Shown: positions 44,402 through 56,658 of the stretch, piece by piece | Numbering within the stretch: position 1 is the first letter of the stretch | How the letters are laid out: each line of letters begins with the position of its first letter | Origin: Acidobacteriota bacterium | GTDB lineage: Bacteria > Acidobacteriota > UBA6911 | Direction: 5' to 3' | Assembly: GCA_012729555.1 (NCBI GenBank) | Contig: JAAYCX010000097.1 | Span: 1 to 64,000 of the forward strand | DNA: 64,000 bases | Made by a program: the position numbers and the translations under genes | The notes under the pieces: generated by a model | What the model was told of the DNA's origin: nothing | The model's database searches: none | Seen by the model: only the letters and a program-made list of their open reading frames with translations

Positions 44402-47233
44402 ATGAAACTGACAAGACTGACCCTGAAGATCAACGGCGTGGAACGCGCCGCGGTCTGCGATCCCGAAAAAGACACTCTCGCCACCGTCATCCGCCGGCTG
44501 GGCCTGACGGGGACCAAGATCGGGTGCGGCACCGGCCAGTGCGGCGCCTGCTCGGTGCTGCTGGGCGGGAAGGTCGTCCGCTCCTGCACCCGGAAGATGA
44601 AGAGCGTCCCGGAGGGGAGCGAGATCCTCACCATCGAGGGGATCGGGACCCCGCAACACCTCCACCCGCTGCAACAGGCGTGGATCACCCACGGCGGCGT
44701 GCAGTGCGGCTTCTGCTCCCCCGGCTTCATCGTCTCCGCCCACGGGCTCCTCTCCGAAAACCCCTCCCCGAGCCGGGAGGAGGTGCGCGAGTGGTTCCGC
44801 AAGCACCGCAACATCTGCCGCTGCACCGGGTACAAGCCCCTCGTCGACGCCGTCATGGCCGCCGCCCCGGTGGTACGGGGCGAGAGCTCCATGGAGGAGA
44901 TCACCTACCGGGAGTCCGAGGAAAAGGACATCTACGGGTCGGCGCGCCCCAGGCCGACGGCGCTCGTGAAGGTGACGGGCCTGGCCGATTACGGCGACGA
45001 CATCAAGCTCAAGATGCCCGAGGGGACCGCCCACCTGGCCGTGGTCATTTCAAGAGTCCCCCACGCGAAGATCCTCGGCATCGATACCGAAGAGGCCGAA
45101 AAGATGCCGGGCGTGTTCAAGGTGATGACGGCCAGGGACGTCAAGGGGACCAACAACATGGCCTCCCCTGCCGTGATCCCGCGCCAGAAGGGGAAGGGGG
45201 TGACCGATTTCCCCGTCATCGCCGGCACCAAAATCAGCCGGCGCGGCGACGTGGTGGCCCTGGTGGCGGCCGACACCGAGGAGCACGCGCGCGAGGCGGC
45301 CAAAAAGGTGAAGCAGAACCTGGAGGTCCTCCCCGCCTACATGACCTTCCCCGAGGCGGTGATGCCCAACGCCATCCAGCTCCACGAGAGCCTGCCCAAC
45401 TTCTACATGGAGCAGCCGGTCTTCAAGGGGAGGGACACCGCCGAGGTGTTCGAGGAGGCCGCCTTCGTCGCCGAGGGGAGCTTCCACTCGCAGCACGAGC
45501 CTCACCTGCCGATCGAGCCCGACGTCGTGCAGGGATACTGGGGCGTCGACGGCATGCTGACGATCCAGTGCAAGTCCCAGTCGATCACCGAGTCCCGGGA
45601 GGTCGTCTCCATGGCCTGCGGCATCCCGATGGAGAACCTCCGGATGATGCTCAACCACGTCGGCGGGTCCTTCGGGTACTCCACCAGCTCGAACACCTTC
45701 GCCCTGGTCGCCACCGCTGTGCAGAACCTCGGCATCCCCTGCACCCTGACGCTCGGCTACGAGGAGTTCAACCACATGACGGGGAAACGGTCGGCCACCT
45801 TCGCCAACGGCCGCATCGCCTGCAACCGGGAGGGGAAGATCACGGCGGCCGAGTACGACATCGCCCTCGACCACGGCGCCTACGCCGTCGTCGCCGGCCA
45901 CATCTTCAACAACCTGGTCTCCGTCGGCTTCCACGGCTACAACATCCCCAACTTCAAGGCCCTGGCCCGCGGCGGGTCGTCCAACCACGCCTTCAACACC
46001 GCCTACCGCGGCTTCGGCTCGCCCCAGGTCTACACGACCACCGAGGCCCTCATCGACATGCTGGCCGAAAAGGCCGGGATCGACCCGTGGGAGTTCCGCT
46101 ACAGGAACGCCGCCCGCCCCGGCGACCTGACCATCAACAGCCGCCCCTACCACGATTACGTCTATCCCGCCATGCTCGAGCGGATCAAGCCCCACTACGA
46201 CCGCTACAAGGCCGAGGCCGAGGCGGCGCGGGCCGAGGGCCGTCACGTGGGGGTCGGGCTGAGCATGGGAGGGTTCATCATCACCGTCGGCATGTTCGAC
46301 TCGGCCGAGGTGGCGCTCGAGCTGAACCCCGACGGCACGATCACGCACTGGAATACCTGGGAGGACATGGGGCAGGGGGGGGACATCGGCACCCTGACCC
46401 ACACGGTGAAGGCGCTCGCCCCCATGGGCGTCACCGCCGACCGGGTGCGGCTGGTCATGAACGACAGCAAGACCTGCCCCGACACGGGGCTGGCCGCCGC
46501 CAGCCGCTCCCACTACATGGCGGGCAACGCCACCATCGACGCCGCCGGCAAGCTGATGGACTCCATGCGCAAACCGGACGGCTCCTGGCGCACCTACGAC
46601 GAGATGAAGGCGGAAGGGATCCCGACAAAACATGTCGGGCACTACGACCAGTTTCACATCGGCCTCCCCCCGGGACTCGACCCCAACACCGGCGAAGGGG
46701 AGAAGAACCCCACCTACATGTACGGGCTCAACCTCGCCCAGGTCGAGGTCGACGTCAAGACCGGCAAGACCCGGGTACTGAAGTTCACCTGCGTCACCGA
46801 CGTCGGCACCATCGGCAACCGGCTGGCGGTCGAGGGGCAGGGCTACGGCGGCATCTCCCACAGCATCGGTTTCGCCCTCAGCGAGGACTACGACGCCCAG
46901 GACAGGCACGGCAGCATGGTCGGGTGCGGCATCCCCACCATCGACATGATCCCGGACGACTTCAACCTCATCTTCATGGAGACGCCGCGGCCGGCAGGTC
47001 CGCACGGCTCCTGCGGGTGCTCCGAGGTCTTCCAGAGTTCCAACCACATGGCCGTCATCAACGCCATCCGCAACGCCTGCGGCGTCCGCATCTACTCCCT
47101 CCCCGCCACCCCCGACAAGGTCAAGGCGGCCTGGGAGGCGCGGCAGCGGGGGGAGGACCTGACGCCGCCGAAGTACTTCCTCGGTTCCGATTTCGAGGAT
47201 GAACTGGACCTCATCCGGGCCAACCCGCTGTAG
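44402..47233 (+). CDS. Mop-type molybdenum hydroxylase (aldehyde oxidoreductase family)
   Basis: 943 residues, single-chain with no FAD domain and no export signal. Residues 1-80 are a plant-type ferredoxin (C42-x4-C47-x2-C50-x11-C62) and 90-160 the all-helical [2Fe-2S] domain (C102-x2-C105, C139-x-C141). The spacing matches the Desulfovibrio gigas aldehyde oxidoreductase, which carries molybdopterin-cytosine dinucleotide. The large domain has H-G-A-Y, the Gly-rich A-Y-R-G-F-G-S-P-Q and, near the C-terminus, G-P-H-G-S-C-G-C-S-E with the expected active-site Glu. It oxidises an aldehyde or N-heterocycle; the substrate is unknown. First gene of a run of at least five with short gaps. Confidence 0.93.
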   Translation: MKLTRLTLKINGVERAAVCDPEKDTLATVIRRLGLTGTKIGCGTGQCGACSVLLGGKVVRSCTRKMKSVPEGSEILTIEGIGTPQHLHPLQQAWITHGGVQCGFCSPGFIVSAHGLLSENPSPSREEVREWFRKHRNICRCTGYKPLVDAVMAAAPVVRGESSMEEITYRESEEKDIYGSARPRPTALVKVTGLADYGDDIKLKMPEGTAHLAVVISRVPHAKILGIDTEEAEKMPGVFKVMTARDVKGTNNMASPAVIPRQKGKGVTDFPVIAGTKISRRGDVVALVAADTEEHAREAAKKVKQNLEVLPAYMTFPEAVMPNAIQLHESLPNFYMEQPVFKGRDTAEVFEEAAFVAEGSFHSQHEPHLPIEPDVVQGYWGVDGMLTIQCKSQSITESREVVSMACGIPMENLRMMLNHVGGSFGYSTSSNTFALVATAVQNLGIPCTLTLGYEEFNHMTGKRSATFANGRIACNREGKITAAEYDIALDHGAYAVVAGHIFNNLVSVGFHGYNIPNFKALARGGSSNHAFNTAYRGFGSPQVYTTTEALIDMLAEKAGIDPWEFRYRNAARPGDLTINSRPYHDYVYPAMLERIKPHYDRYKAEAEAARAEGRHVGVGLSMGGFIITVGMFDSAEVALELNPDGTITHWNTWEDMGQGGDIGTLTHTVKALAPMGVTADRVRLVMNDSKTCPDTGLAAASRSHYMAGNATIDAAGKLMDSMRKPDGSWRTYDEMKAEGIPTKHVGHYDQFHIGLPPGLDPNTGEGEKNPTYMYGLNLAQVEVDVKTGKTRVLKFTCVTDVGTIGNRLAVEGQGYGGISHSIGFALSEDYDAQDRHGSMVGCGIPTIDMIPDDFNLIFMETPRPAGPHGSCGCSEVFQSSNHMAVINAIRNACGVRIYSLPATPDKVKAAWEARQRGEDLTPPKYFLGSDFEDELDLIRANPL

Positions 47234-47247
47234 AAGGGAGCGGCGCC

Positions 47248-49494
47248 ATGAAGCCCGAGGACGCCCGCGAACACACCGACCGGTGCTTTCGCGGGGAGCC
47301 GGCCACCTGCACCTTCGCCTGCCCCTTCAGGATGGACATCCGGTCCTTCCTGGATAAAGCGGCCCGGGGCAGGTGGCCGGCCGCTTACCGGACGCTGCGC
47401 GACGCCGTCGTCTTTCCCGCCGTCGTCAGCGTCCTCTGCGACCAGCCGTGCCGGGGGGCGTGCCAGCGCACCCTGCTGGGTGACGAGGCCCTCGAACTCA
47501 GGGAACTGGAGGCCGCCTGCCTCCGGAACGTGAAGGAGCGCAAGCCCGAACGCTACGTCATCCCCCCGAAAAAGGAGCGCGTGGCCGTCGTGGGGGCCGG
47601 CCCCTCGGGCCTCGCCTGCGCCCTCGCCCTCGCCCAGAAAAAGTTCCGGGTCACCGTCTTCGAAAGGGGGGAGGGGTGGGGCGGCCGGCTCCGGGAACAC
47701 CCGCGCTTCGCGGAGTTCGACGAGGACATCGGGCTGCAGTTTTCGGCGCTCGAGGCGCAATTCCGATTCGGGGCGGAGGTCGGCGGCCTCGGGGAGCTCT
47801 CGGGGTTCGAGGCGGTCTACGTCGCCACGGGCGCAGGGGGGGACGCGTTCGGGCTCGAGAACTCCTGGAACGACCAGCTCCACTCCACGGCCGATCCGAG
47901 GGTGTTTCTGGGGGGGGAGCTGTGCGGATCCTCCGTGATGGAGGCGCTGGCCGCCGGAACGGAGGCGTCCCGGTCGATCGAGGTCTTTCTCCAGACCGGC
48001 AAGGCGGCCGCCACCTTCGGCCGCTTTCCCCGGGGTTACGGCGGGCACGCGGTGCCTCACGAGGGGGTGCCCCCCGCCCCGGCCGTCCGGCCGGCCGACC
48101 CCTCCGGTTACAGCGGGGAGGAGGCCCGGGCCGAGGCCGCGCGCTGCATGCAGTGCGACTGCAACATCTGCATGGAAGCGTGCGAGATGCTCCGGCTCTT
48201 CCGCAAGGACCCGCACAAGATCGCGGTCGAGGTCTACACCGACACCCACGTCAACGCCCCCTTTTCCAGTCACACCATCACCCGCGAGGCCTACTCCTGC
48301 AACATCTGCGGTTACTGCGGCAGCGTCTGCCCGGTAGGGGTGAACATCGGGCCGCTCCTGCAGCTCTCGCGCCGCGTGCGCGCGAGCGCGGGGGTGCACC
48401 CGGCGGCGCTACACGATTTCTGGCTGCGCGAAATGGATTTCGCCGTTTCCGAGGGGGCCTTCGCCTCCCCCCCCGCGGGACGGGAGGAGTGCGCCTACGC
48501 CTTCTACCCCGGCTGCCAGCTGGGGGCGTCGAGCCCCGAACACGTGCTGAGGTCGTGGGAGTTCCTCGCCGCGCGTCACGACGCCGGCGTCATGCTGGGG
48601 TGCTGCGGCGCCCCCGCCTACTGGGCCGGGGACGACGACCGCCTGCGGGCCAATATCGAGGAAATCGAACGGGCCTGGACCGGGATGGGGCGGCCGGTGC
48701 TCGTGTGCGCCTGCGCCACCTGCCGGACCGTCCTGGCCGGTTTCCTCCCCGGCATCCGGACCGTCTCGCTCTACGAGCTCCTGGCCGAAGCGGAGGAGGT
48801 GCGGCCCGCGCGCCTCTTCCCCGAGGCGGCGGTCTTCGACCCGTGCGCCGCCCGGGGGGCGGACCGGATGGAAGCCGCCGTGCGCACCCTCCTCTCCCGC
48901 TCCGGGGCCGCCTGCGCCGAACTCGCGGAGAAGAACCGCTGCTGCGGTCACGGGGGGCATATCTACCCGGCCAACCCCGCCCTGGCCGAAGAGATCGCCC
49001 GAAACCGCGCGGAAGCGGACGCGCGCCCCTATGTCGTCTACTGCGCCAACTGCCGGGAGGTTTTCGCTTCCCGCGGCAAGGCCTGCGCCCATATCCTGGA
49101 CATGATCTTCGACCTCCCGGTCCGGGAGGGGGTCCCGGGCCTCGACGAAAAGCGGGCGAACAGCCTGGAGGTGAAAAGGGAGCTGATGAAAAGAATAAAG
49201 GGCGCCGACTTCGAGGCCCCGTCGCACCCATGGGACACCCTGACCCTGGTCATCGACGGGGGGCTCCGGCGCACCCTGGACCGGAAGCTCATTTCGGCCG
49301 TCGATATCAAGGAAGCCGTCTGGCGCGCGGAGTCCACCGGGGACAGGTTCCTCGACGAGGGGACCGGCGCCTGTCTCTGCAGCATGGTGAAGGAGGTGAT
49401 CACCTACTGGGTCGAATACCGCGGAATCGCCGACGGAACCTTTGAGATCCTCGACGCCTATACGCATCGCATGCGCTTCACCCGGGGGGAATGA
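47248..49494 (+). CDS. FAD/iron-sulfur/CCG-domain electron carrier (DVU_1558-like)
   Basis: 748 residues. Residues 1-100 resemble the GltD N-terminal two-[4Fe-4S] region (C-T-F-A-C-P, C-D-Q-P-C-R-G-A-C). Residues 112-260 are an FAD-binding fold with one V-G-A-G-P-S-G motif. No second Rossmann motif follows, so the NAD(P)H-binding domain of GltD-type proteins appears to be missing. Ferredoxin-like cysteines lie at 300-312 and 351-361 (C-x2-C-x2-C-x3-C-P). Two heterodisulfide-reductase-type CCG domains follow (C-C-G at 452-454 and 565-567). A conserved-looking C-terminal region (about 640-748) is unrecognised. It probably moves electrons from the molybdenum hydroxylase to a disulfide-type or membrane acceptor (inference). 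Confidence 0.87.
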   Translation: MKPEDAREHTDRCFRGEPATCTFACPFRMDIRSFLDKAARGRWPAAYRTLRDAVVFPAVVSVLCDQPCRGACQRTLLGDEALELRELEAACLRNVKERKPERYVIPPKKERVAVVGAGPSGLACALALAQKKFRVTVFERGEGWGGRLREHPRFAEFDEDIGLQFSALEAQFRFGAEVGGLGELSGFEAVYVATGAGGDAFGLENSWNDQLHSTADPRVFLGGELCGSSVMEALAAGTEASRSIEVFLQTGKAAATFGRFPRGYGGHAVPHEGVPPAPAVRPADPSGYSGEEARAEAARCMQCDCNICMEACEMLRLFRKDPHKIAVEVYTDTHVNAPFSSHTITREAYSCNICGYCGSVCPVGVNIGPLLQLSRRVRASAGVHPAALHDFWLREMDFAVSEGAFASPPAGREECAYAFYPGCQLGASSPEHVLRSWEFLAARHDAGVMLGCCGAPAYWAGDDDRLRANIEEIERAWTGMGRPVLVCACATCRTVLAGFLPGIRTVSLYELLAEAEEVRPARLFPEAAVFDPCAARGADRMEAAVRTLLSRSGAACAELAEKNRCCGHGGHIYPANPALAEEIARNRAEADARPYVVYCANCREVFASRGKACAHILDMIFDLPVREGVPGLDEKRANSLEVKRELMKRIKGADFEAPSHPWDTLTLVIDGGLRRTLDRKLISAVDIKEAVWRAESTGDRFLDEGTGACLCSMVKEVITYWVEYRGIADGTFEILDAYTHRMRFTRGE

Positions 49495-49499
49495 GGCCG

Positions 49500-49697
49500 A
49501 TGGAAACCGGGAAGAGACATTGGAAATGCGCCCGGTGCGACCGGGAGCTGGTACCGAAAAAGACGGTGTTCACCTACATGGGGCTGACGCTGGCCCACGA
49601 GGTCGAGGTCTGCCCGGGCTGCGGCAAGGTCTTCGTCCCCCGCGACATGGCCGAGGGGAAAATGGCGGAGGCGGAACGGCAGCTCGAGGACAAGTGA
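49500..49697 (+). CDS. Small four-Cys protein (DVU_1557-like redox/zinc-ribbon)
   Basis: 65 residues. ATG 49500 is chosen because GGGGGA lies about 9 bases upstream; ATG 49491 overlapping the previous stop is an alternative. Two C-x2-C knuckles (C-A-R-C-D, C-P-G-C-G) are separated by about 27 residues, giving a rubredoxin- or zinc-ribbon-like fold. A metal site, zinc or iron, is likely. Its place directly after the electron carrier suggests a small redox partner or assembly factor. Confidence 0.8.
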   Translation: METGKRHWKCARCDRELVPKKTVFTYMGLTLAHEVEVCPGCGKVFVPRDMAEGKMAEAERQLEDK

Positions 49698-49704
49698 GGA
49701 ACCC

Positions 49705-50109
49705 ATGGCATACGACGCCGAAGACATTATTGCCCTGACCGCCAGGGGGTACTGCTGCAGCCAGATCATGGTCAAGGCGGGGCTCGACGCGCGGGGAGAG
49801 GAGAACGAGCAGCTGCTCGAAGCGGTCGCCGGGCTGTGCGGCGGACTGCATTCGGGCCTCTGCTGCGGCATCCTGACCGGGGCCGCCTGCCTGCTGTCGC
49901 TCTACGACAGCAGCGCCGCGGCGTCCGCCATGATCCCGGAACTGGCGCGGTGGTTCCGTTCGACCTACGGGACGGCCCGCGGCGGCATCGAATGCCGCGA
50001 CATCCTCGGCGACGACCCCCTCGCTAGGAGCGAGCTCTGCCCGGGGATGATGGCCGAGACCCTGTCCCGCTGCAGGGAACTGCTGGCCCCTTTCGGCTAC
50101 GAACTCTGA
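49705..50109 (+). CDS. C_GCAxxG_C_C family protein
   Basis: 134 residues. Cysteines at G-Y-C-C-S-Q near the start, G-L-C-G-G-L-H-S-G-L-C-C-G in the middle with a following G-A-A-C-L-L, and G-I-E-C-R-D later fit the C_GCAxxG_C_C family, often next to redox enzymes. Proposed roles include cluster or disulfide chemistry. Overlap-free tight spacing (7 bases before, 3 after) marks it as part of the molybdenum-hydroxylase run. Confidence 0.85.
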   Translation: MAYDAEDIIALTARGYCCSQIMVKAGLDARGEENEQLLEAVAGLCGGLHSGLCCGILTGAACLLSLYDSSAAASAMIPELARWFRSTYGTARGGIECRDILGDDPLARSELCPGMMAETLSRCRELLAPFGYEL

Positions 50110-50112
50110 CCG

Positions 50113-51474
50113 ATGCCGCGGACGCCGCTCGATGGCTGGATGGCCCGCAGGCTGCGCGCTCACGGGCTGCCGCCCGGAACCGACACCGGGCTGTACCAGT
50201 TGGCCCGGCTCAGGGAAACCCTGGATTACGCCCGATCCCGGAGCCGTTTCTACCGCGACCGCCTCGCACAGATAGACAGCGCCTCCATCCGCAGCCTGGA
50301 CGATGTCGCCCGGCTTCCCTTCACCTTTCCCGAGGATCTCGCCGCCGGGTTCCACGAATTCCTCTGCGTCTCCCCGAGGGAGGTGGAGCGGATCGTCACC
50401 CTCGCGACCTCCGGCACCACGGCCCCGCCCAAGAGGATCGCCTTCGCTTCCGAAGACCAGGAACGGACCGTCGACTTCTTCCATCACGGCATGTCGACCT
50501 TCACGGACCGGACCGACCGCGTGGTCGTCTTCATGCCGGGAGCGGCCGAGGGGAGCGTGGGGGACCTCCTCCGGCGGGCGCTCGCGCGCCTCGGCTGCGC
50601 CGCCGTCGTCTCCGGCCCCGTGTCCGATTACGGGAGGGCGTTCGAAACCCTCCGCCGGTCGGAAGCCACCTGTGTCGTGGGGATCCCCTGCCAGCTCCTG
50701 GCGCTCTCGAGGTACGCCCCGTCGCGCGCGCCGGGAAAACCGGTCCGGCCCAGGAGCGTGCTCCTGAGTTCGGACTATGTCTCCCCGGCGGTCGTGCGGG
50801 CGCTGGAGGCCGCGTGGGGGTGCACGGTGTACGGCCACTACGGGATGACCGAAATGGGGCTCGGGGGCGCCGTCGAGTGCCGCGAGCGGCAGGGGTATCA
50901 CCTGCGGGAGGCCGACCTGCTGTTCGAAGTCGTCGATGGCGCAAGCGGCAGGCCCCTCCCGGACGGGGAATACGGCGAGGTGGTGTTCTCCACCCTGACG
51001 CGCCGGGCCATGCCCCTTATCCGGTACCGGACCGGCGACGCTTCCCGCATCCTGCCGGGAACCTGTTCCTGCGGGTCCCCCCTCCGAAGGCTGGACCGCG
51101 TCCGGGGCCGGATGCGGGAGGCCGTGGGGCTCGAGGGAGGACTCTCCCTGTCGATGGCCGACCTCGACGACGCGCTCCTCGACGACCCCGGCGTGTCGAC
51201 CTTCTCCGCCGCGATGGAGCGCCGGGGGGGGCGCGATCGTCTCCGCCTCCGGGTGCGCACGATCCGGGGGCCGGCCGACCCGCGCCGTTGGGCGGCCCGG
51301 GTCCGCGCCATCCCCGTCGTGGACGACCTGGTCCGCCGCGGCCGCCTGGAGCTCGACATCCTCCCGGGAGCCGCCGCCTTCCCGACGACCGGCACGGCCA
51401 AGCGCCGCATCGCCGATCGCAGGGATCCGGCGCGGTCCGCGAAGCCCCTCGACATCCCGCGGTCGGGGCGTTAA
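50113..51474 (+). CDS. AMP-forming ligase-like protein (DVU_1553/PaaK-like)
   Basis: 453 residues with an ANL/PaaK-type pattern: A-T-S-G-T-T-A-P-P-K (P-loop-like), Y-G-H-Y-G-M-T-E (core motif) and Y-R-T-G-D-A-S-R. A short Cys-bearing loop (G-T-C-S-C-G-S-P-L) in the C-terminal half resembles the PaaK zinc-like element. The C-terminal lid is diverged, so CoA-ligase activity is uncertain. In the Desulfovibrio locus the homologue is annotated as an AMP-dependent CoA ligase. It may activate the acid product of the hydroxylase or help cofactor chemistry; neither is shown. Confidence 0.82.
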   Translation: MPRTPLDGWMARRLRAHGLPPGTDTGLYQLARLRETLDYARSRSRFYRDRLAQIDSASIRSLDDVARLPFTFPEDLAAGFHEFLCVSPREVERIVTLATSGTTAPPKRIAFASEDQERTVDFFHHGMSTFTDRTDRVVVFMPGAAEGSVGDLLRRALARLGCAAVVSGPVSDYGRAFETLRRSEATCVVGIPCQLLALSRYAPSRAPGKPVRPRSVLLSSDYVSPAVVRALEAAWGCTVYGHYGMTEMGLGGAVECRERQGYHLREADLLFEVVDGASGRPLPDGEYGEVVFSTLTRRAMPLIRYRTGDASRILPGTCSCGSPLRRLDRVRGRMREAVGLEGGLSLSMADLDDALLDDPGVSTFSAAMERRGGRDRLRLRVRTIRGPADPRRWAARVRAIPVVDDLVRRGRLELDILPGAAAFPTTGTAKRRIADRRDPARSAKPLDIPRSGR

Positions 51475-51506: not shown

Positions 51507-51576
51507 GTATTCATGAGCAGTTGTTCGGGACGGCGTGGCCGCCCGCACGGGCGGCCCGCGCCGGGAAAGGAATCCT

Positions 51577-51921
51577 ATGAGCGACGAAAAGCCACTGGCT
51601 GAGCGGGAATGCGTCCCCTGCCGCGGGGGGGTACCTCCGCTCGAGGGGGAAACCCTGGCCCGGTACCAGGCCGAACTGGGGGGCGACTGGAAGGTGGTCG
51701 AGGACCAGCGCCTGGAAAAAACCTATAAATTCAGGAATTTCAAGGAGGCGCTCGCTTACACCGTGCGGGTCGGGGAACTGGCCGAAAGCGTCGGCCATCA
51801 TCCCGGCATCCACCTGGCCTGGGGCCAGGTGAAACTCGCCATCTGGACGCACAAGATTTCGGGCCTCTCGGAGGCCGATTTCGTGCTGGCGGCGAAAGCG
51901 GACGAACTCTACCGGTCGTGA
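51577..51921 (+). CDS. Pterin-4a-carbinolamine dehydratase (COG2154)
   Basis: 114 residues from ATG 51577 (SD AAAGGA). The catalytic signature fits exactly: E-x3-H-H-P-x5-W-x9-H-x8-D. The enzyme dehydrates 4a-hydroxytetrahydropterin. No aromatic amino acid hydroxylase is encoded nearby. Placement between a molybdenum hydroxylase locus and a cysteine desulfurase fits the proposed role of one COG2154 branch in molybdopterin-cofactor metabolism. An N-terminal C-V-P-C-R-G-G is an additional Cys pair. Confidence 0.88.
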   Translation: MSDEKPLAERECVPCRGGVPPLEGETLARYQAELGGDWKVVEDQRLEKTYKFRNFKEALAYTVRVGELAESVGHHPGIHLAWGQVKLAIWTHKISGLSEADFVLAAKADELYRS

Positions 51922-51952: not shown

Positions 51953-53101
51953 ATGATCTATCTCGATCACGCGGCGACCTCCTGGCCCAAGCCGCCCGAA
52001 GTGCTCCGGGCCATGGCCGCCTTCCTGGAGCGGGCGGGGGGGAACCCCGGCCGATCCGGGCACCGCCTTTCGCTCGAAGCCGGGCGCATCGTCTACGACG
52101 CGCGCGAGGCGGTCGCCTCGCTCTTCGGCGCCCCCGACCCGTTGCGGGTGCTCTTCACCCTGAACGCCACCCAGGCGCTCAACCTCGCCCTCTCGGGCCT
52201 CCTCGGGCCCGGGGACCACGTGGTCGCCACCGGCATGGAGCACAACGCCGTGATGCGCCCCCTGCGCCACCTCGAAAGCGGAGGGGTGCGACTCACGGTG
52301 GTCCCCTGCTCCCGGGACGGGTCCCTGGACCCGGGGAGGATGGCGGCCGCCATCGGCCCGTCGACACGCCTCGTCGTCATGACCCACGCGAGCAACGTCA
52401 CGGGCACCATCCTGCCGGTCTCCGACGTCGCCCGCGCCGCGCACGCGCGCGGGGCGCTCCTGCTGGTGGACGCCGCCCAGACGGCGGGGGTGCTCCCCAT
52501 CGACATGCAGTTGACCGGCATCGACCTGCTGGCCTTCACCGGGCACAAGGGGCTGCAGGGACCGCCCGGCACCGGCGGGCTGATCCTGGGAGAAGGGGTC
52601 CCCGCCTCTCGGATGGCGCCGCTGGTGCGGGGGGGAACGGGCAGCCGCTCGGAGCACGAGATCCAGCCGGAGGACTTCCCGGACAAGTTCGAGAGCGGCA
52701 CCCTCAACGGCCCCGGGATCGCCGGTCTGGGCGCCGGCATCCGCTGGGTTCTCGACCGCGGCATCGACGCGCTGCGTGCCCGTGAACTGGAACTCGCGCG
52801 CGCGCTCGCGGAGGGGATCCGCAACATCGCGGGGGTCGCCGTCTACGGCCCGGAAAACCCGGAGGAGCGCACATCGATCGTGTCCTTCACCGCGGCGGGG
52901 CGCCGCCCCTCCGAGATCGGCCTCCGGCTGGACGACGAGTTCGGCATCCTCTGCCGGGTGGGGCTGCACTGCGCCCCGGCCGCCCACCGCACCATCGGCA
53001 CCTTCCCGGAGGGGACGGTCCGGCTGGCCCTCGGCGCCGCGACGGGGATGGCAGAGGTCGAGGCCGCCGTCGCCGCCGTCCGGAAGGTCCTGCGCGCCTG
53101 A
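51953..53101 (+). CDS. Class V aminotransferase, cysteine desulfurase-like
   Basis: 382 residues starting with Y-L-D-H-A-A-T-S-W-P-K-P. The PLP Lys lies in F-T-G-H-K-G-L-Q-G, and C-R-V-G-L-H-C-A-P-A-A-H holds the conserved persulfide-type Cys segment near residue 345. This places it with the SufS/CsdA-like family. Such enzymes release sulfur from cysteine for Fe-S clusters or for the terminal sulfido ligand of the Mo cofactor. Its position near the hydroxylase suggests the latter, as for NifS4/XdhC systems, but no XdhC is in the window. Confidence 0.88.
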   Translation: MIYLDHAATSWPKPPEVLRAMAAFLERAGGNPGRSGHRLSLEAGRIVYDAREAVASLFGAPDPLRVLFTLNATQALNLALSGLLGPGDHVVATGMEHNAVMRPLRHLESGGVRLTVVPCSRDGSLDPGRMAAAIGPSTRLVVMTHASNVTGTILPVSDVARAAHARGALLLVDAAQTAGVLPIDMQLTGIDLLAFTGHKGLQGPPGTGGLILGEGVPASRMAPLVRGGTGSRSEHEIQPEDFPDKFESGTLNGPGIAGLGAGIRWVLDRGIDALRARELELARALAEGIRNIAGVAVYGPENPEERTSIVSFTAAGRRPSEIGLRLDDEFGILCRVGLHCAPAAHRTIGTFPEGTVRLALGAATGMAEVEAAVAAVRKVLRA

Positions 53102-53171: not shown

Positions 53172-53197
53172 CGTTTGCGCCCGTTTGCGCATACAAT
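53172..53197 (+). promoter_or_regulatory. CGTTTGCGC direct repeat and -10 box before the MFS gene
   Basis: CGTTTGCGC occurs exactly at 53172-53180 and 53182-53190 (10-bp period, one helical turn), followed at once by TACAAT at 53192-53197. No good -35 is present, suggesting an activator-dependent promoter with tandem operator sites. The MFS start is at 53275. Confidence 0.55.
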
Positions 53198-53274
53198 ATC
53201 CCAGCCATGCCGGCGGCCATCCCACGGATCCCCGGCGCCGGACCGGAACCACGAAGCCACGGAGTCTCGAGACC

Positions 53275-54573
53275 ATGAATTACGACCCGCGCGAAACCCT
53301 GGACAAGGCCCCTATGGGGCGGCTCCAGATGTTGATCATCTTCATCATGTTCGGACTCAACGGCATCGACGGGTTCGACGTCCTCTCCATCAGCTACGCC
53401 TCTCCCGGGATCGCGGCCGAATGGAACCTCGACCGCGCCGCGCTCGGCATGATCCTGCCGATGGAACTCATCGGCATGGCCCTCGGCTCGATCCTGTTCG
53501 GCTGGATCGCCGACACCCTCGGGCGGCGCTCCATCTCGCTGCTTTGCCTGGTGATGATGGCCTTCGGCATGCTGATGACTCCCACCTCCGCGAGCGTCGC
53601 ACAGCTGTCGGCCTGGCGCGTTTTCACCGGCTTCGGCCTCGGGGGACTGCTCGCGGCCATCAACGCGCTGACGGCGGAGTATTCGTGCGTCCGGCGCCGG
53701 CACCTGTGCGTCGCGATCATGTCGATCGGCTACCCCGTCGGGGGGATCCTCTGGGGCAAGCTCGCCACCTGGCTGCTGACGCAGTACGAGTGGCGCTCGG
53801 TATTCTACCTGGGATTCGGGGTCACGGCCCTGTTCATCCCGGTGGTCTACTTCCTGGTGCCGGAATCGCCCCACTGGCTCGTGCGCAAGCAGCCCCGCGC
53901 CGCCCTGGAGCGGGTCAGCCGGGCCATGCAGCGTCTGGGCCACCCGCCCGTGGGCGCCCTCCCCGAGGTGTCGCTCGAAATGCGCAGGAAATCGATGGGC
54001 GACCTCTTCTCCCCCGCCCTGCTCCCCATAACCCTGATCGTGACGGTGGCCTATTTCCTGCAGATCACGAGCTATTACTTCATCCTCAAGTGGGTGCCCA
54101 AGATCGTCGCGGACATGGGGTTCTCGGCCGCCTCGGCCGGCGACGTGCTGGTGTTCGCCAACATCGGGGGAGCGGTGGGGGGCGCCACCCTGGGCCTGCT
54201 GACGCTCCGCTTCGATCTCAGGAAACTCACCATCGCCGTGATGGCCCTGGGGGGGGTGTGCATCGCCCTGTTCGGGCAGATGCCGGCCGATCTGACCGCC
54301 ATGTCGGCGGTGGCGGTCCTCTGCGGCCTGTTCGGCAACACGGCCATCGTCGGGATGTTCGCCCTGTTCGCCCAGGCCTTCCCCACCCACGTGCGCGCCT
54401 CCGGGACCGGCTTTTCCGTCGGCATCGGGCGCGGCGGCGCCATCCTCTCCCCCATCATCGCCGGGTTCCTGTTCCAGTGGGGGTTCAGCCTCCCCGCGGT
54501 CAGCATGATCATCAGCACCGGGGCCATCGCCGGGGCCGCCGTCCTCTGCTTTCTCAAGCTCCAGAAGGCCTGA
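53275..54573 (+). CDS. MFS transporter, aromatic acid:H+ symporter (AAHS) type
   Basis: 432 residues, 12 membrane helices, from ATG 53275. AAHS signatures D-G-F-D-V-L-S-I in helix 1 and the loop 2-3 motif G-W-I-A-D-T-L-G-R-R are present, with the loop 8-9 counterpart less clear. Members import benzoate-like aromatic acids. It might feed or relieve the adjacent molybdenum hydroxylase pathway; the direction and substrate are unproven. It has its own promoter with tandem repeats. Confidence 0.87.
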   Translation: MNYDPRETLDKAPMGRLQMLIIFIMFGLNGIDGFDVLSISYASPGIAAEWNLDRAALGMILPMELIGMALGSILFGWIADTLGRRSISLLCLVMMAFGMLMTPTSASVAQLSAWRVFTGFGLGGLLAAINALTAEYSCVRRRHLCVAIMSIGYPVGGILWGKLATWLLTQYEWRSVFYLGFGVTALFIPVVYFLVPESPHWLVRKQPRAALERVSRAMQRLGHPPVGALPEVSLEMRRKSMGDLFSPALLPITLIVTVAYFLQITSYYFILKWVPKIVADMGFSAASAGDVLVFANIGGAVGGATLGLLTLRFDLRKLTIAVMALGGVCIALFGQMPADLTAMSAVAVLCGLFGNTAIVGMFALFAQAFPTHVRASGTGFSVGIGRGGAILSPIIAGFLFQWGFSLPAVSMIISTGAIAGAAVLCFLKLQKA

Positions 54574-54698: not shown

Positions 54699-54941
54699 AT
54701 GCAGGAGGGGAACCTGGTGACTGCGGCGGAGATGTCTGACGGGCAGAGTGGGATCGTGACCCGCATCGAGGGGGGCCAGAAGATGCAGAGCCGGCTGGAG
54801 GCCCTCGGCATCCGCCCGGGAAGGAAGATCAGGAAAGTGAGTTCCGCTTTCCTGAAGGGGCCCTCCGTGATCGAGGTCGAAGGGTGCTCCATCGCCATCG
54901 GGTTCGGCATGGCCAGCCGCATTTACGCCAGAACGGAATAG
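54699..54941 (+). CDS. feoA: Ferrous iron transport protein A
   Basis: 80 residues, SH3-like FeoA fold with the pattern G-I-V-T-R-I-E-G-G, L-E-A-L-G-I-R-P-G and A-I-G-F-G-M-A-S-R-I. ATG 54699 has AAGGAG upstream; GTG 54717 behind GGAGG is another possible start. FeoA assists FeoB, 7 bases downstream. Confidence 0.92.
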   Translation: MQEGNLVTAAEMSDGQSGIVTRIEGGQKMQSRLEALGIRPGRKIRKVSSAFLKGPSVIEVEGCSIAIGFGMASRIYARTE

Positions 54942-54948
54942 ACCCCTC

Positions 54949-56658
54949 ATGAAGATCCTCCTGGTGGGCAACCCGAACGTGGGGAAGAGCGTCGTGTTTT
55001 CGCGCCTCACGGGGGTCCACGTCCTTTCCTCCAACTACCCCGGGTCCACCGTCAGTTACACCAACGGCTTCATGAAGCTGGGGGAGGAGCAGGTCGAAAT
55101 CACCGACGTTCCGGGCACCTACACCCTGGACCCGACCTGCGAGGCGGAAAAGGTCGCCCGGGAGATGCTGGGGCACGGGGACCTGATCATCGACGTGGTG
55201 GACGCCACCAACCTCGAGCGGAACCTCTACCTGACGCTGCAGCTGCTGGAGCGGAACACCCCGGTGGTGGTGGCGCTCAACGTGTGGGACGACGCCCGGC
55301 ACCATGGGATCGACATCGACCTGGGAAAGCTGGAAGCGGCGCTGGGGGTCCCCGTCATCCCCACCGTGGCGGTCTCCGGCGAGGGAATGAAGCAGCTGGT
55401 GGAGGCGTTGCCGCGCGCCGCGGTCCCCGCCCACCCCGCGCGCTCGAGCGCCGAGCGGTGGATGGCCGTCGGGGAGATCGTCGGGCGCGTGCAGCAGGTG
55501 TCCCACCGACACCACACCTGGAGGGAACGCCTGGCCGACGCCACCCTCCGTCCCGTCTCCGGGGGCCTCATCGCCGCCGCGGTACTGGCCGGGATCTTTG
55601 TCGGGGTCCGGCTCGCCAGCGAAGGCCTCATCGCCCGGGTGATGGACCCGCTCTTCGAGGGGGTCTGGGCCCCGGTGGTCCTCCAGGTCAGCCGGCTCCT
55701 CGGGGGGGGCGGGCTGCTGCACGACATCGTGGTGGGGGACCTCGCCGGGGGAAAGGTCCACTTCGTCGAATCGTTCGGCCTCCTCACCAGCGGGCTCTAC
55801 GTCCCGATCGCCATGGTTTTCCCCTACATCCTCTCCTTTTACCTGGCCCTGGGGCTGCTCGAGGATTCCGGCTACCTGCCGCGCCTGGCGGTCATGCTGG
55901 ATACCCTGATGCACCGGCTGGGGCTGCACGGGTACGCCATCATCCCCACCATGCTCGGTTTCGGATGCAACGTACCCGGGGTCATGGCCACCAGGGTCCT
56001 GGAGAGCCGGCGTGAACGTTTCATCGCGGCCACCCTCATCTCCATAGCCATCCCGTGCGCCTCGCTCCAGGCCATGATCTTCGGCCTGGTCGGCCAGCGG
56101 GGGGGGCGCTACGTGCTGCTCGTCTACGCGGTGCTCTTCCTCGTCTGGATGGGGCTGGGGTTCGTCCTGCGCCGGCTGGTGCGCGGTTTCACCCCCGAAC
56201 TGCTTATCGAGATCCCCCCCTACCGCCTCCCTTCGCCGCGCGCGATCGCGCAGAAACTGTGGGCGCGCGTGCGGGGGTTTTTCGTGGAAGCCATCCCCCT
56301 GGTTCTGGGGGCGGTCCTCGCTGTCAACCTCCTCTATTCCTTCGGCCTCTTCGACGCGATCGCCGACTTCTTCGCCCCGGTGGTGACCACGGTCCTGGGC
56401 CTGCCCAGGGAATCGGTCGCCGCCCTCGCGGTGGGATTCCTGAGGAAGGATGTCGCCCTGGGGATGCTGGCCCCCCTGGGCCTGACAGCGGGGCAACTGG
56501 TGGTCGGGAGCGTGGTGCTGGCGATGTTCTTCCCCTGCATCGCCACCTTCATCGTGCTCCTGAGGGAGATCGGGCTCCGGGGGCTCGCCAAGTCGACCGG
56601 CATCATGCTGGCGGCGACACTGGTGACCGGGGGGATACTGAACCTCCTGCTCGATTGA
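54949..56658 (+). CDS. feoB: Ferrous iron transporter FeoB (short form)
   Basis: 569 residues. N-terminal G domain: G-N-P-N-V-G-K-S, S-N-Y-P-G-S-T and D-V-P-G-T-Y, with the guanine motif region N-V-W-D. The membrane domain has two Gate-type repeats (G-C-N-V-P-G, P-C-A-S-L-Q, then F-P-C-I-A-T-F). It is shorter than the E. coli protein (about 770). Imports Fe(II) under anoxic conditions, which fits the iron-sulfur load of the neighbourhood. Confidence 0.95.
   Translation: MKILLVGNPNVGKSVVFSRLTGVHVLSSNYPGSTVSYTNGFMKLGEEQVEITDVPGTYTLDPTCEAEKVAREMLGHGDLIIDVVDATNLERNLYLTLQLLERNTPVVVALNVWDDARHHGIDIDLGKLEAALGVPVIPTVAVSGEGMKQLVEALPRAAVPAHPARSSAERWMAVGEIVGRVQQVSHRHHTWRERLADATLRPVSGGLIAAAVLAGIFVGVRLASEGLIARVMDPLFEGVWAPVVLQVSRLLGGGGLLHDIVVGDLAGGKVHFVESFGLLTSGLYVPIAMVFPYILSFYLALGLLEDSGYLPRLAVMLDTLMHRLGLHGYAIIPTMLGFGCNVPGVMATRVLESRRERFIAATLISIAIPCASLQAMIFGLVGQRGGRYVLLVYAVLFLVWMGLGFVLRRLVRGFTPELLIEIPPYRLPSPRAIAQKLWARVRGFFVEAIPLVLGAVLAVNLLYSFGLFDAIADFFAPVVTTVLGLPRESVAALAVGFLRKDVALGMLAPLGLTAGQLVVGSVVLAMFFPCIATFIVLLREIGLRGLAKSTGIMLAATLVTGGILNLLLD

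Follow-up and report, generated by a model that had tools for sequence, protein, structure and literature searches.

A GltD-type protein lacking the NAD(P)H domain and bearing heterodisulfide-reductase-type CCG domains is a probable redox partner of a MOP-type molybdenum aldehyde oxidoreductase

The open reading frame at positions 47248–49494 (+) of the 64,000-nucleotide stretch of Acidobacteriota DNA analyzed here (contig JAAYCX010000097.1; hereafter the window) encodes a 748-amino-acid protein in which a GltD-type module without its NAD(P)H domain is joined to a dicluster ferredoxin domain, two CCG domains and a C-terminal domain. The reading that we prefer, at a probability of roughly 0.6, is that this protein is the dedicated redox partner of a MOP-type molybdenum aldehyde oxidoreductase (AOR), whose gene ends 14 bp upstream, and that it passes electrons to an Hdr-type site and not to NAD(P)H. 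The protein is a member of the known but uncharacterized family NF045663 (diclust_near_Sec, pyridine nucleotide-disulfide oxidoreductase/dicluster-binding protein), from which it shows no difference; the match of 656.2 bits (cut-off 530) covers residues 4–744, that is, 741 residues or the full length. We found nothing published on the function of this family in the accessible literature. The new points are that the nicotinamide domain has been lost throughout the family, that its ligands are of the Hdr type, that it pairs one-to-one with MOP-type AORs, and that there are clues to the identity of the C-terminal domain. The protein is not peculiar to its source genome, as family members occur in other genomes too.

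Pfam places Fer4_20 at residues 2–96, one NAD_binding_8/FAD Rossmann match at 114–163, Fer4_17 at 299–365, and two CCG domains, and an AlphaFold2 model of the chain (m8ccadd09d2b9) has a pLDDT of 89 and a pTM of 0.74. All features lie on the forward strand. The Fer4_20 match is a GltD/NfnB-type [4Fe-4S] domain (47251..47535) with invariant cysteines 13, 21, 25, 64, 68 and 72; model and alignment together define a single Rossmann domain at residues 111–251 (47578..48000), in which the two FAD half-folds are joined directly; and the Fer4_17 match is a dicluster ferredoxin domain (48142..48342) with nine invariant cysteines. CCG domain 1 occupies residues 416–495 (48493..48732), CCG domain 2 residues 528–603 (48829..49056), and a C-terminal domain, whose predicted fold resembles RelE/BrnT/DUF4258, residues 655–748 (49210..49491). 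The single Rossmann motif and the two CCG domains listed in the sequence-only reading were thus borne out, but Fer4_20 at the N-terminus, the dicluster domain and a small gene at 49500–49697 were missing from that list. The idea of a truncated pseudogene finds no support, as the gene encodes 748 residues with all ligands intact and has relatives of the same length at 39–84% identity, nor does that of an assembly artefact, as the architecture is repeated in more than 50 genomes. Linker residue 265 is glycine here and cysteine in 27 of 32 relatives.

That a GltD-like protein has here lost its NAD(P)H domain, leaving the halves of the FAD fold contiguous, had been claimed before and is confirmed by a paralogue match, by alignment, by the AlphaFold2 model and by 58 relatives. 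A GltD-like open reading frame elsewhere in the same genome (contig C53) matches family positions 10–201 and 202–310 with about 156 aa between them, while in the 748-aa protein these two segments are contiguous. Direct alignment shows that the paralogues carry an NADPH domain with the motif GGGNSAxD, which is missing from the 748-aa protein. The site where GltD has its NAD(P)H domain (about 150–160 aa) corresponds to residues 198–219 (47839..47904). The model contains a single Rossmann unit (E111–115, H119–130, E134–139 ... E189–192, E219–221, H230–250) and no second dinucleotide-binding fold within residues 112–290, which is where such a fold would have spoken against the loss. Among the relatives the NAD site measures 0–31 aa and the FAD region corresponding to residues 111–251 measures 104–168 aa, so that the domain is absent from all 58. 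Because this domain is gone, the conclusion that the protein should be unable to use NAD(P)H is well supported at the level of sequence and model. The second, NAD(P)H-binding Rossmann domain that marks GltD and the pyridine nucleotide-disulfide oxidoreductases is lacking, and this contradicts the family name, which implies a pyridine-nucleotide enzyme; the name thus points to the wrong chemistry and should be read with that warning. The family also offers a case of a nicotinamide flavoprotein turned into a nicotinamide-free Hdr-type device, of which a relative with the lost domain survives (below).

The CCG domains contain the ligand sets C423, C452-C453 and C489-A-T-C492 (domain 1) and C533, C565-C566 and C599-A-N-C602 (domain 2). 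In EtfD a threonine replaces one cysteine and a histidine in a CxHC motif closes the noncubane cluster, which makes it non-catalytic, while HdrB keeps the CC pair and has no EtfD-type histidine (PMC13083937). In our family C452-C453 and C565-C566 are invariant, and residue 491 is threonine or serine, rarely alanine or tyrosine, and never histidine. Each domain therefore has the C, CC and CxxC elements of HdrB/HdrD, and the EtfD hallmarks (threonine for the second cysteine of the CC pair, histidine in CxHC, transmembrane helices) are absent; we saw no membrane or TM-like segment in the AlphaFold2 model. Judged by these residues both CCG domains are of the heterodisulfide-reductase type and not of the EtfD relay type, and such a ligand set speaks for a predicted reactive site of the disulfide type more than for a relay that hands electrons to quinone as EtfD does.

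The ligands of the iron-sulfur clusters and those of the flavin have fared differently across the family. All 25 Fe-S cysteines (6 N-terminal, 9 dicluster, 10 CCG) are invariant in every member that spans them. Of the FAD motifs (GxGxxG, E, GG, ATG and GD), the 748-aa protein has all but the GD aspartate, which is E224 here and is unconserved in NF045663 (G, E, A, P, L, M and others), and several of them are eroded elsewhere: the last glycine of GxGxxG is found in 42 of 58 relatives, the ribose-binding Glu/Asp in 42 of 58, the ATG threonine in 32 of 57 and the second glycine of FxGG in 39 of 58, with L139–L143 among the motif-eroded members; G116 is invariant (58/58). The 748-aa protein and its close relatives retain GAGPSG, E139, GWGG, ATG and FxGG. 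FAD is therefore likely to be bound in the 748-aa protein and may have been lost in other branches, where the flavin may be dispensable, since its signature residues erode there while the Fe-S cysteines are all kept. The label "flavoprotein" given earlier is less certain than had been assumed, given the unconserved GD aspartate and the signature residues lost in several lineages. At the N-terminus six cysteines are conserved, and E88, at the position of the conserved glutamate of the NfnB motif, is present in 57 of 58 relatives; the second cysteine of that motif (RCx2Cx4Cx3CP) is replaced in all 58 (G16 here), and because of this loss one of the two N-terminal clusters is probably either missing or bound through an unusual ligand. 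One genus member, G067, has two diverged flavoproteins (L075:6005-8266 and L076:7903-10311), each beside its own Mo-AOR, and in the L075 protein the second FAD half-fold is largely missing.

The gene upstream (44402..47233, +) encodes a Mo aldehyde oxidoreductase with two [2Fe-2S] clusters and Moco. It matches NF045668, the Desulfovibrio MOP type, at 1155 bits (cut-off 1100) and contains Fer2, Fer2_2, Ald_Xan_dh_C and MoCoBD_1/2 but no FAD domain, and these two features make it a MOP-type enzyme. Its best match in the PDB is the D. desulfuricans AOR 1dgj (E=2e-260), followed by the D. gigas structures 1sij/1vlb, so that it is the same type of enzyme as in those systems. MOP-type enzymes require an external electron acceptor (PMC3877041), as must this one since it has no FAD domain; that of the D. 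gigas AOR has been "proposed to be a flavodoxin" (PMC3877041). The D. gigas enzyme is among the best-studied molybdenum hydroxylases, and yet its natural acceptor is only proposed (PMC3877041); a gene that lies next to that of the AOR in several phyla and equals it in copy number makes the acceptor question directly testable.

The two genes travel together. AOR is present in 29 of 30 flavoprotein-bearing genomes, and in the genus of the source genome five genomes have both and four have neither. Using class labels assigned within our analysis, the Clostridia comprise 16 genomes with both genes and 375 with neither, and no genome has a single one (16/16 of those having either), with equal copy numbers throughout (2:2 in eight genomes and 1:1 in eight); the Desulfovibrio class comprises 30 genomes with both, one with AOR only, one with the flavoprotein only and 31 with neither (Fisher p=1e-15, where the cells count genomes, which are not independent events). 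A related AOR subfamily (740–825 bits) does not track the flavoprotein. In all 36 adjacent pairs the AOR gene comes first, and genome G363 has, beside a flavoprotein gene on the same contig and strand, an AOR gene whose product scores 1337 bits against D. gigas 1sij. The distance matrices of AOR and flavoprotein correlate at r=0.94, a value that in part reflects species history, since those of AOR and TrsS (0.88) and of flavoprotein and TrsS (0.93) also correlate highly.

Downstream, also on the forward strand, are genes for a 65-aa DVU_1557-family CxxC...CxxC zinc ribbon (49500..49697; NF045645, 78.9 bits, cut-off 60), a DVU_1555-family C-GCAxxG-C-C protein (49705..50109; NF045669, 124.6 bits, cut-off 103) and a DVU_1553-family AMP-dependent ligase (50113..51474; NF045666, 457.9 bits, cut-off 300). 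A pterin-4a-carbinolamine-dehydratase-like protein (51535..51921; PF01329, E=5e-26) may be a further member of the cluster, and an EF2568-type cysteine desulfurase or Sec-lyase-like protein (51953..53101; TIGR01977, 447 bits, cut-off 377) is a possible Moco sulfur donor. A DVU_1557 match lies directly 3' of the flavoprotein gene in 28 of 31 relative loci as well as in the window.

If the 748-aa protein is indeed the redox partner of the AOR, aldehyde would be oxidized at the Mo site and electrons would leave through the two [2Fe-2S] clusters of the AOR, as is established for its homologue. They would then enter the N-terminal [4Fe-4S] region of the flavoprotein, cross the Rossmann domain (by way of FAD in members that still bind it), pass the dicluster ferredoxin and end at the two Hdr-type CCG clusters, which could deliver them to a two-electron acceptor of disulfide/thiol or similar type; under other conditions the direction might reverse. 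The C-terminal domain and the DVU_1557 protein encoded downstream would form a docking or assembly module common to the TrsS guild. The sequence-only reading suggested electron transfer linking the Mo enzyme to an acceptor of disulfide or quinone type and not to NAD(P)H; of this, the exclusion of NAD(P)H stands and the linkage to the Mo enzyme proved very strong, while the acceptor is only plausible, the CCG ligands favoring a disulfide over a quinone. Against a partner role stand the unconserved GD aspartate and the fact that just three cysteine ligands are evident for one of the N-terminal clusters.

The tight linkage to AOR could by itself also mean that the protein is a maturation or activation factor, supplying electrons or a reduced thiol or persulfide to build or reactivate the AOR Moco together with TrsS, a methyltransferase, the AMP ligase, the C-GCAxxG protein and the cysteine desulfurase, since the operon holds several maturation-like genes. 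The conserved Desulfovibrio-class order is AOR-FLAVO-DVU1557-MTase-CGCA-TrsS-AMPlig, XdhC-like and MocA-like genes (recognized by eye) occur in some loci such as L011, and the C-terminal domain also exists as a stand-alone protein encoded before DVU_1557-TrsS. We nevertheless think this unlikely: TrsS and the stand-alone domain persist in genus members that have neither AOR nor flavoprotein, while the flavoprotein tracks AOR one-to-one in copy number; a maturation factor would have no need to be present once for every copy of the enzyme, and in adjacent pairs the flavoprotein gene is invariably next to that of the enzyme. The protein might instead, like EtfD/GlpC, feed electrons to the quinone pool or to a complex in the membrane, with the CCG clusters as non-catalytic wires. 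In favor of this, EtfD is the closest match to the CCG part among solved structures (E=6e-9), but such a relay appears quite improbable given the missing EtfD threonine and histidine ligands, the lack of a membrane segment in the model and of an obvious membrane-partner gene adjoining.

Two further readings concern the flavin. In at least part of the family the Rossmann domain could be vestigial and the protein a pure Fe-S wire without FAD, which would be compatible with a partner role; the eroded FAD residues set against 25 invariant cysteines and the truncated second half-fold of L075 speak for this, while the motifs kept in the 748-aa protein and its close relatives, the universal G116 and a Rossmann unit that AlphaFold2 predicts intact with high confidence speak against it, and we regard it as a tentative possibility. 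Alternatively, an FAD positioned with the N-terminal clusters on one side and the Hdr module on the other could support electron bifurcation or confurcation as in NfnB/HdrA, as the bifurcating NfnB among the Foldseek relatives, the Hdr-type CCG pair and the glutamate at position 88 might suggest. StnC has a GltD/NfnB-like fold without obligatory bifurcation (PMC10482914), however, so that this fold need not bifurcate, and with no gene for a second flavin or ferredoxin partner identified and the FAD motifs eroding, we hold bifurcation to be very unlikely.

Foldseek matches the front of the protein to NfnABC/StnABC, NfnB, GltD and DPD and its rear to EtfD. With GltD, NfnB and StnC it shares the N-terminal Fer4_20 domain and the FAD fold (E about 1e-13 to 1e-7), differing in the deleted NAD(P)H domain and in the one replaced Fe-S cysteine of the N-terminal motif. 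With HdrB/HdrD and EtfD it shares the dicluster and paired CCG domains (profile matches to 9ojn EtfD and HdrB chains); its ligands are those of HdrB and not of EtfD, and it differs from these proteins in the fused GltD-type front. The relative in which the lost domain survives is a GltD-HdrD fusion of the P0003 type from Clostridia (L171:4972-7563, 864 aa), which shares the N-terminal C-x7-C-x3-C, the FAD fold, the dicluster and the two CCG domains but retains the GD aspartate as well as an NAD(P)H domain with the motif VVGGGDVAMD, has no C-terminal domain and no adjoining AOR, and at 454 bits falls under the NF045663 cut-off; its layout looks like the ancestral one. Clostridia also encode stand-alone HdrD-like proteins (L169:5594-6700, L170:6690-7847 and L173:5525-6694) that score up to about 275 bits against NF045663, and their neighbors, ABC-transporter and small membrane-protein genes, give no hint of an electron acceptor.

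The C-terminal domain, called unrecognised in the sequence-only reading, indeed has no significant Pfam match, either alone or across 23 members, but it is covered by NCBIfam NF045663. By Foldseek its model resembles RelE/BrnT/HigB (BrnT 3u97, probability 1.0, TMt 0.66, E only about 0.02), and an hhalign comparison with DUF4258 (P=1.2e-4, probability 54%, 45 columns) is suggestive; DVU_1557 weakly resembles MqsA/YgiT fingers. These likenesses to type II toxin-antitoxin systems hint that the C-terminal domain and DVU_1557 could be a domesticated toxin-antitoxin-like interaction pair, with the differences that the domain is here fused to a redox enzyme and that there is no evidence of toxicity. 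A stand-alone homologue of 151 aa with a conserved SRREF Tat-like N-terminus is encoded elsewhere in this genome, on contig C11, immediately 5' of a DVU_1557 gene, trsS and a DVU_1553 ligase gene and near a tungsten-type AOR gene. Loci for this small protein (about 150 aa) are L040:7212-7667 (-), L074 and L077–L080; it heads a DVU_1557-trsS-AMP ligase mini-operon wherever the flanks could be read, and it is present in all nine matching genus members, four of which have no Mo enzyme. One could go further and suppose that for the textbook MOP-type AORs, D. gigas included, the native acceptor is such a one-chain, "HdrABC-like", nicotinamide-less partner and not flavodoxin or NAD(P), that it couples aldehyde oxidation to a disulfide, and that it docks through this toxin-antitoxin-like pair, which would also serve the tungsten-AOR/Sec-radical-SAM guild; we consider this rather doubtful.

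The family name further implies a Sec radical-SAM neighbor, trsS, which is on a separate contig, C11, in this genome and close by in most relatives. The trsS gene (G000:C11:147712-149001; L040:5689-7020 (-)) contains an in-frame TGA, which aligns with a cysteine of the close genus relative L077 (FIPPG*EESHC vs FIPPGCEESHC), and because of this position the C11 gene very probably encodes a selenoprotein; an Rfam search at the TGA returned no known RNA element. We found nothing on function in the literature on DVU1559 and TrsS; Haft & Tolstoy 2025, which according to a review (PMC13188914) describes TrsS, was outside our coverage. In the window, the gene cluster is followed by a gene for an aromatic-acid-type MFS transporter (53185–54573) and then by FeoA-like and FeoB iron-uptake genes (54700–56658). 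The source genome (G000) and eight genus members show a strong expansion of tungsten-type aldehyde ferredoxin oxidoreductases, each having between a dozen and about thirty stretches that match.
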